Positions 8,469 to 26,085 of a DNA stretch of 64,000 nucleotides are shown here, in pieces. The stretch is from a virus. How positions within the stretch are numbered: the first letter of the stretch is position 1; each line of letters begins with the position of its first letter. The notes beneath the pieces are model-generated. The model saw only the letters and a list, made by a program, of their open reading frames with translations, was not told where the DNA came from and searched no databases. The translations under genes were made by a program, and so were the position numbers. The stretch is from positions 1-64,000 of the IMG/VR virus record IMGVR_UViG_3300046777_002497. One strand, written 5' to 3'.

Positions 8469-9445
8469 TGGCGCTCAAGATTGCAATCGTCGGTGGCGGC
8501 TGGACGGGGTGCCATTTAGCTTCACGCTTGATGAACGAAGCCGATGTGACTCTGTTTGAGCGCAATGAAATGCTCATCTCCGAAGCATCGTTAATCAATC
8601 AGAACCGATTGCACTATGGCTATCACTACGCCAGGAATCATGCCACGCGCATGTTGTGCAGGAATACGTTTGAACAGTTCATGATGGACTATGGCCATCT
8701 AACGGAAAACGTGCAGAATAATTTCTATGCAGTGTCAGAAGACGAAAGCTTGTTGGACGCAGAAACGATTCGCCTTATTTTTAAAGATTGGCCACACGCG
8801 GAAGCCGATGCGAACTTCCTTAATCGTTCCTCACTGCTTCTACATACCATTGAGAAATATATTTCTCCAACTGCCGCTGGCAATTACTTTGATGAGCTAT
8901 TGGCCCCCATTGCGAGAAGGGATGAAATCAATGACAATTCACTTGCTTTTTTGAAGCAAGATTATGATTTCGTCATTGATTGCACAAACAATTCCTTGCT
9001 GCCAATTCTTGATGGGGACTATTTTGAGGCAGTGGCAATGTTTGTTTATCGTCCCATCAAAACGCCCCCATTCGGCGCACTCACTTTTATTGATGGCGAG
9101 CTGTTCTCCATCTATCCATACGGATCTTCAATGTTCTCGCTGAGTCATGTGAAGCTTGGCGTTATTGAGCAAAAAGAAACAAATTGTTTCAGCAAAAATT
9201 ATGGTCAACTGAAGGAAAAGCGCCAGCTAATCGAGGATCACGTGGTGCGCTACTGGTCCGAGTTTCATGATTATTTTAAATACGCATTCCTTGTGGTATC
9301 AATTAAAGCAAAATGCAAAAACGCCAGCGCTCAACGCGTTCCCATTTTTAGGCAACAGGATAATCTGCTGTCTTTTTACACTGGCAAAATTCAAGGCATC
9401 TATGCCATCGAAGAGATGGCAAAAGAAGCCATGTTTCAAGCGTAA
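8468..9445 (+). CDS. FAD-dependent oxidoreductase (Rossmann-type)
   Basis: The product has 325 residues. 'IAIVGGGWTGCHLASRL' is a textbook GxGxxG dinucleotide-binding start, followed by the ribose-binding acidic residue in VTLFERNE. 'NQNRLHYGYHYARN' resembles the flavin-proximal histidine region of DAO-like and UDP-galactopyranose-mutase-like enzymes. The context is sugar nucleotide modification, so a sugar or amino-sugar oxidation is a reasonable guess. It overlaps the convergent isomerase gene by ten bases at the 3' ends. Confidence 0.72.
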   Translation: MALKIAIVGGGWTGCHLASRLMNEADVTLFERNEMLISEASLINQNRLHYGYHYARNHATRMLCRNTFEQFMMDYGHLTENVQNNFYAVSEDESLLDAETIRLIFKDWPHAEADANFLNRSSLLLHTIEKYISPTAAGNYFDELLAPIARRDEINDNSLAFLKQDYDFVIDCTNNSLLPILDGDYFEAVAMFVYRPIKTPPFGALTFIDGELFSIYPYGSSMFSLSHVKLGVIEQKETNCFSKNYGQLKEKRQLIEDHVVRYWSEFHDYFKYAFLVVSIKAKCKNASAQRVPIFRQQDNLLSFYTGKIQGIYAIEEMAKEAMFQA

Positions 9446-23106: not shown

Positions 23107-23985
23107 TTATGCGATGCAGAATGCTTGCTTCTCAGCTTCTGTATAGTTTGTGCCATGCGGCAGCTTAAACTTAAGACCCACAATCCGGCCGCCGCAGCCA
23201 TCGGAAGGGCGAAAATCAGTCTTATCACCATCGACAACTGCTAGCTTGCGGTTCATGAAATAGACAAACTGAGGCAGTTTTTGACTACGCTTAATGTTGA
23301 ATGCAGCGGCAACATTCAGGCCATTTGATAATGCCGAGCCTGCCATGGCTACATTTTTTTTATTATCCCAACCGTCGAAGCTGAAAGTGAGATGATAGCC
23401 AATATCTTTGCATTCTTGCCAGTTATGTTTGTTTTTAGTGTAGTCGTAAAATTTTACCAACAGTTCAGGATAATGGCTAAACATGTGGATAATGCTTTTG
23501 TATGTTGTGGCGACAATATAAACGCCAAACTTAACCCGCCAGAATCTTGACAGTTCTTCAGACACGGTAAACTCTAGAGTTTCCCATAAAATGTCGGACG
23601 TTCCGTTTAATCTAATTGCCAAAATCTCAGAGACTGGCAGCATTGATCGGTTACAAAGAATCGCCGTAGCAGTCAGCTCTAGAAAATGTTGAGTGTGATC
23701 GAAAAACGCTAGTGTGCGCCTGATTCTGGCTGTTTTTTTGCCGCCCATAAGATACGGGACGCCAGCAAAGTGCAGGCAAATTTTTGCACAGTTTCCGGCA
23801 TTCGGACAAACATTCTGTCCACTGATAACGCTAGGTGCAAAATGTAGGATTCTAGTTTCTTCTGCACTTTTCTCGGTTTTTGGATTGACCGAGAGAAGCG
23901 TACGATGGGATAGGTTATGTTTTTTGCAAAATGCTGAGAGGGTAGCGGGAAGCTTTGCGCGAGAATTCAGAACGGTGGTAGCCAT
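23107..23985 (-). CDS. GP88-family protein
   Basis: The product has 292 residues. The pattern 'LLSVNPKTEKSAEETRILHF', 'SGQNVCPNAGNCAKICLHFA', 'ARIRRTLAFFDH', 'LAIRLNGTSDILWE' matches the GP88 proteins first named in mycobacteriophages. The three cysteines in CPNAGNCAKIC are invariant-looking and may bind metal or an iron-sulfur cluster. The molecular function is not established. Start ATG at 23985. It precedes a small membrane protein gene. Confidence 0.75.
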   Translation of the reverse strand: MATTVLNSRAKLPATLSAFCKKHNLSHRTLLSVNPKTEKSAEETRILHFAPSVISGQNVCPNAGNCAKICLHFAGVPYLMGGKKTARIRRTLAFFDHTQHFLELTATAILCNRSMLPVSEILAIRLNGTSDILWETLEFTVSEELSRFWRVKFGVYIVATTYKSIIHMFSHYPELLVKFYDYTKNKHNWQECKDIGYHLTFSFDGWDNKKNVAMAGSALSNGLNVAAAFNIKRSQKLPQFVYFMNRKLAVVDGDKTDFRPSDGCGGRIVGLKFKLPHGTNYTEAEKQAFCIA

Positions 23986-24415: not shown

Positions 24416-24630
24416 TTTGATCTGGTGGAGAGGGTCGGCGCGATCTCTCGCCCCGATGCATGAATGATGCCAAATTTCAACGGCCTTGCATAGTGGACGG
24501 TTTAGCAAAGCGCACACTAGGCAGCGACGTTGCGAGATGGTATGGGGCCGCGCGATGTTGGGCGCAACGACAAACAAAAAAAAAGAACATGCGCGCGCGT
24601 ATCACGGCGACTGTCCAAAAATCAAACGCT

Positions 24631-24707
24631 GCAATATTTCGCAACATTCAGCCACCTATCACGCTTGGGGGCATCCTGGCAAGCTGCGCAACATTTCGCA
24701 ACATTCA
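24631..24707. repeat. GCAACATT repeats in opposite orientation to the main array
   Basis: Two blocks, GCAATATTTCGCAACATTC at 24631-24649 and GCGCAACATTTCGCAACATTC near 24686-24706, are tandem 10-mers. Their reverse complement (GAATGTTGCGAAATGTTGCG) has the same form as the AAGAAATGTT units of the larger array at 24.83-25.20 kb. They would form an inverted partner of that array. Confidence 0.6.
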
Positions 24708-24826
24708 GCGCCCATACCATAGGACTGGCAAGAATCGGCGGATTGTGACGAAAAATCACAAAACGCCAAAATGTAACAACGGATACAGAGAAAAGGAACG
24801 GCGAATCATCTCAGCCGATCGCGGGA

Positions 24827-25205
24827 CATTGTTAAGAATTATCAAGAACCATAAAATATTAAGTAATATTAAGAATTATCAACACACTGAGAAATGTGAA
24901 GAATTATCAAGAATTGTTAAGAGATGTGACGCTTGTAGGAATGTTAAGAAATGTTACAAAATATTAAGAAATGTTACAATTTGCGAATGTTAAGAAATGT
25001 TAAGAATTGTTACAAAGTATTACAAAAACGCAAATATTAAGAATTGTTACAAAGTATTACGAAATATTAAGAATTGTTACGAAATGTTAAGAATTGTTAA
25101 GAATTGCAACAAATTCTGACATTGTTACGAAATGTTAAGAATTATTAAGAAATATTACGAAATATTAAGAAATATTAAGAAATGTTACGAAATGTAACAA
25201 TGCGG
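24827..25205. repeat. phased 10-bp AT-rich tandem repeat array
   Basis: About 370 bp is built almost entirely from variants of A[AC]GAA[AT]T[GA]TT, in long runs joined head to tail with 10-bp spacing (for example TTAAGAATTGTTACGAAATG). At least thirty units can be read. Short A/T tracts recur once per helical turn, so the DNA should be curved and easily melted. No gene crosses it on either strand. It is a candidate origin, centromere-like site or protein-nucleation site. Confidence 0.85.
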
Positions 25206-25217
25206 TTATGCGCATAC

Positions 25218-25312
25218 CGTGATACGACCCTAGCCGGATCCTAGATACGCCTCTAGCCGGATCCAATTTTTTCTGATACGGAGCCAGCCGGATCTGATAC
25301 GGAGCTAGCCGG
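25218..25312. repeat. four copies of a GATACG...AGCCGGATC repeat
   Basis: Four imperfect copies of about 22 bp, consensus TGATACGGAGCTAGCCGGATC, start near 25220, 25243, 25272 and 25293. They separate the phased AT array from a terminator. The TGATACGGA core also occurs at 20588, at the start of the structured stretch. Confidence 0.75.
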
Positions 25313-25330
25313 GCCTTGAGGCCCGGCTTG
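25308..25330. terminator. hairpin GCCGGGCC-TTGA-GGCCCGGC
   Basis: An 8-bp perfect G/C stem with a TTGA loop, just after the 22-bp repeats. Its T-run is weak on both strands, so it could be a terminator or a roadblock that isolates the repeat block from the leftward operon. Confidence 0.6.
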
Positions 25331-25396
25331 GTAAGACGATGACGGCTTAAACAATGAGTAAACATTGTGACATGCTAAATCGCCTGTGAAACCACT

Positions 25397-25546
25397 TTAC
25401 CAACCATGACCATCAAAAGCCGCCTTTAGGGCGGCTTCTTCGCTGGCAAATGGTCCTCCTACAAAGCTTTCATCATCATCAGCATAGAAATACCAACCTT
25501 CCACAAGTTCTGTACCTTTGCAGCAATCTTCAGAAAAGAAATCCAC
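25397..25546 (-). CDS. small protein whose 3' end encodes a terminator
   Basis: The product has 49 residues from GTG 25546: acidic, aromatic 'GWYFYADDDESFVGGPFASE', then EEAALKAAFDGHGW. It overlaps nothing and lies five bases after the upstream gene. The codons for EAALKA form a perfect hairpin, GCCGCC-CTAAA-GGCGGC followed by TTTT, so the operon's terminator lies inside the coding sequence. The family is unnamed, but the pattern is one I associate with cyanophage small proteins. Confidence 0.6.
   Translation of the reverse strand: MDFFSEDCCKGTELVEGWYFYADDDESFVGGPFASEEAALKAAFDGHGW
25418..25436 (-). terminator. coding-embedded terminator GCCGCC-CTAAA-GGCGGC-TTTT
   Basis: It lies inside the last codons of the 49-residue gene and ends the leftward accessory operon before the 1-kb repeat block. 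Confidence 0.7.
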
Positions 25547-25551
25547 GAGAA

Positions 25552-25851
25552 TTATTTCACTTGCTCCTGAAGCCTATTCCACATCCATTGCTCCTTAGTA
25601 TCAGGGCGTATCAGTTCGTAGCCTTCATGATCAACGATGGCATCACCAGCGCTGTTTATGTGGCCTTCAACATCCCGGCGCCAGATGCCCCTACAAGAGC
25701 CTTGCTGGTCAAAGATGGCAATAATGTCCTCCCGATCCTCCATGGCGAGCCTGACGTGGAAGAGAAGGTCTCTCAAACGGGCCGCTTGGTAGCGGCCTTT
25801 AGTGGGAGGGAAATACGGGCCGTTGTCTTGATAAGTGGAAATGGTCAGCAT
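25552..25851 (-). CDS. unknown accessory protein
   Basis: The product has 99 residues. A charged middle ('RDLLFHVRLAMEDREDIIAI') is followed by 'GIWRRDVEGHINSAGDAIVD', likely an alpha/beta fold. No family is recognised. It is tightly packed between neighbours on the same strand. Confidence 0.55.
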   Translation of the reverse strand: MLTISTYQDNGPYFPPTKGRYQAARLRDLLFHVRLAMEDREDIIAIFDQQGSCRGIWRRDVEGHINSAGDAIVDHEGYELIRPDTKEQWMWNRLQEQVK

Positions 25852-25854
25852 GGT

Positions 25855-26082
25855 TCAAAAAACAGGATGATCAGGGAAGGTTTCAGGCTCTTCTTCAGCC
25901 TCGTGGACAATTTCTTTGAGCTGATCAATGATGCAGCGAATGGCGTAAGCAACTCCTGGGCCAACGTTATCTAACGCTTCGTCCATAGTCCTAATTTCAT
26001 CATGCACTTCTTGAATCGTTTCAAAAGTCTTGGCAGCGTATGGAACGCCCCATTCATCATCGACAATGAGAGAATAAGGCAT
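25855..26082 (-). CDS. acidic unknown protein
   Basis: The product has 75 residues, strongly acidic ('IVHEAEEEPETFPDHPVF' at the C-terminus). It begins with two predicted strands (YSLIVDDEWGVPYAAKTFE) and then a helix. No family is recognised. It is three bases from its downstream neighbour. Confidence 0.55.
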   Translation of the reverse strand: MPYSLIVDDEWGVPYAAKTFETIQEVHDEIRTMDEALDNVGPGVAYAIRCIIDQLKEIVHEAEEEPETFPDHPVF

Positions 26083-26085
26083 GAT

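Follow-up and report, generated by a model that had tools for sequence, protein, structure and literature searches.

The window analyzed here, a stretch of DNA of 64,000 nucleotides, belongs to an IMG/VR record of 74,078 bp. The portal protein shares 64% identity with that of Synechococcus phage S-CBS4, and PHROG-type matches place further genes of the record in siphovirus-type families: a terminase, ribonucleotide reductase, primase/helicase, Sak-like annealing protein and endolysin. Judged by its S-CBS4-like portal and these fitting gene families, the source virus is an S-CBS4-like cyanophage infecting picocyanobacteria. A gene of the ‘Gene product 88’ (GP88) family (positions 23,107–23,985, minus strand; Pfam PF17338, E = 3.8e-20; phrog_1617) lies next to a tandem array at 24,827–25,205 (minus strand) that comprises about 30 units of 10 bp (24,830–25,198), delineated by TRF, unit count and self-match. 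On the far side of the array, a TATGCGCATA palindrome (25,207–25,216), found again in many relatives, separates it from four copies of a constant 21–23-bp CCGG repeat, GATCCGGCTAGnnnCGTATC, a pseudo-dyad (25,221–25,312, minus strand; TRF). A perfect hairpin without a T-run, AGCCGGGCC-TCAA-GGCCCGGCT (25,307–25,328, minus strand), stands at the end of a leftward small-gene operon and has similar counterparts in the relatives L022, L043 and L072. It is followed by a small anchor ORF of about 52 amino acids (DFFSEDCCKGTELVEGWY...; 25,397–25,555, minus strand) that is kept beside this region and served as bait for fetching relatives. An ORF on the plus strand at 21,202–22,179 has no family in Pfam or PHROG, its IS110 transposase-like match (NF051857, E = 9e-4) being weak and far under the cut-off.

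TRF reports the array at 24,890–25,195 with a period of 10 and 31.8 copies, and scores it at 20 and 30 bp as well. Self-match at a lag of 10 across 24,827–25,205 reaches 0.64, compared with 0.33 ± 0.02 in 500 dinucleotide shuffles (maximum 0.40). Thirty units fit RTTAMRAAWT, and 21 neighboring starts are separated by exactly 10 bp. Read on the minus strand, the direction of the neighboring genes, the unit becomes KTAAYAWTNN. The head-to-tail 10-bp repeats recorded in the earlier note are therefore real, about 30 units in number and with a lag-10 self-match far above chance. The statement that they cross no gene also holds, since no conserved ORF lies over the array, the overlapping ORFs are mechanical only, and relatives exchange the entire stretch. 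No Rfam match was obtained for the array as an RNA element, and no array-like 18-bp match (up to 2 mismatches) occurs elsewhere in the 74-kb record.

Phasing of the repeats with the DNA helix had been proposed, and strong curvature predicted from it. Phasing applies locally and is lost over the whole array, in which a 10.0-bp unit with several breaks (spacings of 16, 17, 27, 28 and 38 bp) drifts against a helix of ~10.5 bp. The predicted curvature finds no support in a wedge model, a rough check that gives a mean bend of 24 degrees per 120 bp versus a window average of 34. Given the 16–38 bp breaks and the below-average bend, neither strict helical phasing nor curvature is the point of the array. 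Alternation of two unit types (AG versus CA/CG), considered as a sign of asymmetric dimers, was rejected (30 of 57 neighbors, p = 0.27).

Relatives of the locus were fetched via the GP88 gene, the ribonucleotide reductase and the anchor ORF. Their comparison by blastn reveals that the natural unit is a replaceable cassette at 24,795–25,198 (minus strand), which lies between conserved blocks and gives way to different operator-like arrays in close relatives. Relative L043 aligns with the window at 24,688–24,794 (90% identity) and 25,199–26,085 (89%), with 427 unrelated bp in between, and the same pattern of matching flanks around an unrelated middle recurs in L022/L023, L047 and L202. Among the nearest relatives, L043, L022 and L047, the match to 24,688–24,794 ranges from 86 to 92% identity. 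The conserved block on the GP88 side (24,688–24,794, minus strand) is non-coding, retains 83–92% identity in relatives and contains the palindrome TTGTGA-N-TCACAA. Along the locus, the anchor ORF is followed by the 21–23-bp CCGG repeats, the cassette, the conserved block, and then GP88 or other genes. The CCGG repeats stand beside the cassette in most relatives, in two to five copies each, with a period of 21–23 bp and the pseudo-dyad GATCCG-N8-CGTATC. They were also tried as host operators and set aside, as they show no enrichment over reversed controls in host genomes.

Four published operator types of cyanobacteria recur in the same slot of relatives. The first is HLR1, the element of the regulator RpaB, with the consensus KTTACAWW-N2-KTTACAWW (PMC13421787, PMC9241938). 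HLR1-type cassettes are found in the window and in L010, L011, L014, L015, L017 and L025; that of L010 contains five exact HLR1 half-sites in tandem, which make four dimers with no mismatch. The second is the PHO box (PMC10976474), present in L027, L028, L029, L102, L258 and further contigs, with YTTAAYYW half-sites every 11 bp in L028, L029, L102, L258 and others. The half-site CTTAACCT is repeated at 11-bp spacing 20 times in L028 and 40 times in L029. Within these PHO arrays, the core CTTAACCT holds ~1–2 bits per position and spacer positions 9–10 only 0.08–0.63 bits. Such fixed cores with varying spacers speak for selection on binding sites, not on duplication. Zur boxes (PMC9337993) occur in L026, L034, L035 and L102; L034 and L035 carry repeats of TGATAATGATTCTCATTCTCAATA. 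The LexA box AGTACAAATGTACT, or a variant that fits the published consensus RGTACNNNDGTWCB (PMC3091678), is present in 32 of 54 non-redundant zones. Both LexA and Zur boxes also appear scattered and non-duplicated, and one or the other shares a zone with an HLR1-type array in L011, L014, L017 and L025. L421, a short contig without the anchor ORF or the CCGG repeats, alternates LexA-Zur-LexA-Zur. The window’s own cassette has no LexA, Zur or PHO site. Similar repeats in L019 and L399, which are unrelated contigs, were discarded as chance likenesses.

Enrichment of these operators was measured in the 54 non-redundant relative zones against dinucleotide shuffles. Exact LexA boxes number 54 versus 0.1 expected, Zur boxes (NTNANAATGATNATCATTNTNAN, up to 3 mismatches) 41 versus 0.4, PHO pairs (up to 1 mismatch) 43 versus 0.6, and HLR1 elements (up to 1 mismatch) 16 versus 0.1. 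Sites for CRP (1 versus 1.3 expected) and NtcA (3 versus 0.2) show little or no enrichment in the same zones. LexA density is 0.69 per kb in the zones versus 0.008 per kb in the rest of the same loci, a ~90-fold difference. From these patterns, it is very probable that the locus consists of host-operator sites across the phage family. The core idea of the earlier note, a dense set of sites for a DNA-binding protein, is well supported.

The same operators can be traced in host-type genomes, here a set of six from Synechococcus, Cyanobium and Vulcanococcus in which gene names were read from translated sequences, not database annotation, and hli genes were called by Pfam. GTTACA-N4-GTTACA stands ~25–50 bp upstream of hli starts at five of its seven sites in these genomes; hli genes are classic RpaB targets. 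The Zur-like (Fur-like) box precedes znuA and COG0523 zinc genes, where the reversed pattern gives none. Because the host copies precede zinc genes, this box is assigned to Zur, and Fur was rejected as its regulator. LexA boxes lie upstream of recA and umuD, and a PHO pair is found ~85 bp upstream of pstS in strain 8F6.

In the window, the resemblance to HLR1 is close and mostly inexact. The first array unit on the minus strand, GTTACATT (25,191–25,198), matches the HLR1 half-site exactly; TC and then GTAACATT come next. In total, the minus strand of the array offers one half-site that is exact and 17 that carry a single mismatch, as well as 8 dimers within 2 mismatches, none of them exact. 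Most units stand one or two substitutions away from HLR1; nearly all have A for T at its position 3, and some also differ at position 5; the two-fold degeneracy at unit positions 1 and 7 is that of HLR1. A series of HLR1-type arrays with shared orientation and a TC spacer runs from the exact GTTACATTTC of L010 through GTAACATTTC of L015 to [GT]TAAYAWTTC of the window. Host HLR1 sites vary at position 3 too, as in GTCACATT before hli. The exact window pattern TGTTAMRNNNTGTTAMR has no match in the six host genomes, and GTTAAG-N4-GTTAAG is rarer there than its reversed control; the GTTAAG variants typical of the window are missing before hli, where the HLR1 consensus stands. The reversed HLR1 pattern matches the window array equally well, though it makes a poor control, TTACATT reading as its own mirror image. 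A scan of viral contigs for HLR1 triplets gave at least 120 matches and is uninformative, since among the matches listed most are without zone context. The unit length, judged unusual beside iterons in the earlier note, equals the HLR1 spacing of two 8-bp half-sites plus 2 nt. The 10-bp HLR1-like direct repeats make an OmpR-family response regulator a likely target. On this sequence likeness, the array is probably aimed at RpaB or a close OmpR-family regulator. RpaB, which governs light and redox genes, is the most likely single target; RpaA or another OmpR-family protein is possible.

These observations lead to a proposal that is slightly more likely right than wrong: the window would carry an exchangeable decoy cassette, or ‘DNA sponge’, to titrate a host regulator during infection, here one of the OmpR family and most probably RpaB. 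The cassettes are non-coding, contain up to 40 half-sites, and keep no fixed distance to a promoter, promoters having been sought by pattern scan only. RpaB acts as a repressor of high-light genes, hli and nblA among them, and as an activator of low-light genes (PMC13421787). Injected and then replicating, each phage genome would present overlapping dimer sites, up to about 20 of them, onto which host RpaB would be pulled. As RpaB leaves host promoters, the repressed hli, nblA and other high-light genes would be released, and RpaB-activated low-light genes would drop. Phage transcription itself would be left untouched by this titration. With the burst of ~60 reported for S-CBS4 (PMC6157547), about 20 dimer sites per genome would amount to more than a thousand decoys in the late phase of infection. 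Decoy arrays are known to titrate regulators in Escherichia coli (PMC7686491, PMC7826281). The cassettes of relatives may act likewise on PhoB, Zur and LexA; with LexA or Zur titrated, SOS and zinc-uptake genes would be derepressed. Against this proposal, PhoB is an activator, and titrating it brings no obvious benefit; several relatives also carry arrays of unassigned motifs, two of which show no enrichment in host genomes. The broader version, in which a hypervariable multi-target sponge (RpaB, PhoB, Zur, LexA and still unnamed regulators) rewires host transcription without a protein and is widespread in this cyanophage group, seems about evenly balanced between being right and being wrong.

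The main rival to decoy titration is a cis-regulatory sensor. Here, the sites would be operators or enhancers of an adjoining phage promoter on the GP88/ribonucleotide-reductase side and would read host light, phosphate, zinc or DNA damage. The end of the cassette near the conserved non-coding block upstream of GP88 fits such a role, as does the single site orientation throughout each array, and host PhoB is known to act at promoters of cyanophages (PMC10976474). However, a promoter would call for one to three sites, set at a fixed distance, whereas the cassettes hold up to 40 in variable mixtures, and the flanks stay constant while the cassette type changes. Moreover, in relatives with PHO arrays the array is separated from the GP88 side by other repeats that extend over hundreds of bp. 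No strong promoter was detected beside the window array; the promoter-like matches lie inside the AT-rich array itself (10 versus 3.7 ± 2.1 in shuffles). Site number, mixture and exchangeability thus speak against the sensor, which is considered unlikely.

Somewhat less likely still is an array of decoys or operators for another protein, such as PhoB, RpaA, a further OmpR-family regulator or a phage-encoded protein. OmpR/PhoB-family proteins are all known to read tandem half-sites, and CTTAACAT on the minus strand resembles the PHO half-site YTTAAYYW. In addition, RpaA competes with RpaB for sites that both recognize (PMC13421787). Yet the spacing in the window is the 10 bp of HLR1 and not the 11 bp of PHO, no PHO pair is found in the window array within 2 mismatches, and a relative of the same series, L010, carries exact HLR1.

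A replication origin, with the array as iterons for a phage or host initiator, would account for AT-rich tandem repeats in a non-coding region, and the cumulative GC skew dips to a local minimum at ~20–24 kb. S-CBS4, however, has its skew minimum at the corresponding place and no array there. An origin, a parS site or a packaging site, functions that the earlier note had raised, would be expected to keep one conserved site type, but relatives with 89–90% identical flanks carry other arrays, in which unrelated motifs replace that of the window. These motifs match operators of host regulators and not initiator sites, and an origin is accordingly judged very improbable. Least credible of all is neutral repeat growth, in which slippage or recombination at a non-coding hotspot would have produced a chance likeness to operators: copy number does differ between the near-identical L398 and L400 (9 and 14 PHO units), but four unrelated published operator consensus sequences stand ~70- to 500-fold over shuffles, PHO cores are fixed while spacers vary, and LexA and Zur boxes are also scattered and non-duplicated.

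Titration of a regulator by extra operator DNA has natural and experimental precedents. The E. coli datA locus titrates DnaA, and the Fur titration assay relies on multicopy operators to titrate its regulator. Unlike the phage cassette, datA is chromosomal, serves the cell, and is neither viral nor swappable. Synthetic DNA sponges (PMC7686491, PMC7826281) resemble the cassette in carrying many tandem operator copies without genes, and in both cases the effect would scale with copy number; they were engineered in E. coli, while the phage version would be natural, hypervariable and directed at several regulators. The HLR1/RpaB system shares the 10-bp direct repeat of KTTACAWW half-sites, which is exact in L010, near-exact in the window and present before host-type hli genes. 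In contrast to host promoters, where a single element of two half-sites is used, the phage array has ~30 half-sites, mostly with A at position 3, and no promoter adjoining it by pattern scan. The PHO boxes at promoters of the cyanophages S-PM2d and P-SSM2 (PMC10976474) are another case of host PhoB binding cyanophage DNA, but they are single boxes that drive phage genes, whereas the arrays of relatives run to as many as 40 half-sites and are not attached to any gene. Iteron origins and parS sites are likewise tandem protein-binding repeats; they differ from the cassette, whose repeat identity changes between close relatives and whose array-less relative keeps the skew minimum.

In the openly licensed literature, no description of this locus was found under phage-borne decoy arrays, cyanophage with RpaB, or cyanophage with PHO box, and the hypervariable host-operator locus is apparently undescribed. 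Titration by decoy DNA is already known; what is apparently new is a natural, viral and exchangeable version for several regulators. Phage takeover of host transcription is known to proceed through proteins and RNAs; bare operator DNA, if the proposal is true, would be a new route that acts from injection on and grows with replication. The cassettes would then also show which regulators matter most in infection, namely those of light, phosphate, zinc and SOS. Arrays with unnamed motifs would point to new host regulators and could serve to fish them out. As a resource, the cassettes would be natural tunable sponges for cyanobacteria.

The zones show several minor features, among them repeat motifs without an assigned regulator. 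The window-array slot is filled by arrays of a TTAGCATCTCRTGCTAAATTTC unit (AGC-N6-GCT dyad) in L030, L043 and L047, and by AT-rich AAAGAATWAAGAATTRATYGCACTTTG repeats in L022, L038 and L207. The AGC-N6-GCT array was tried as a host operator and rejected, with no enrichment over reversed controls in the six host genomes. Direct repeats like CTAGGTGATGCCTACTGTGnGGCG, ~25 bp apart, lie downstream of the cassette in L028–L030, L036, L043, L071, L091 and L406, and a long dyad, CAGCATTCCTTATnATATAAGCAATGCTGAT, is repeated beside HLR1 or LexA sites in L012, L014, L025 and L209. In L035, a coding stretch resembling high-light-inducible proteins (8,501–8,640) directly adjoins the Zur-box cassette. Outside the array, two copies of GAATGTTGCGAAATRTTGC occur on the minus strand of the conserved non-coding region at 24,623–24,710 of the window, where the GTTGC pairs spaced by 10 bp are perhaps a relic or a related site. 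Lastly, an ORF resembling HNH-type homing endonucleases (recognized by eye from VPEGFKEIPGYDGRYFINEKGEVWS) lies between the anchor ORF and the CCGG repeats in L026, L038, L048, L058, L061 and L071, and this inserted ORF might assist cassette exchange.
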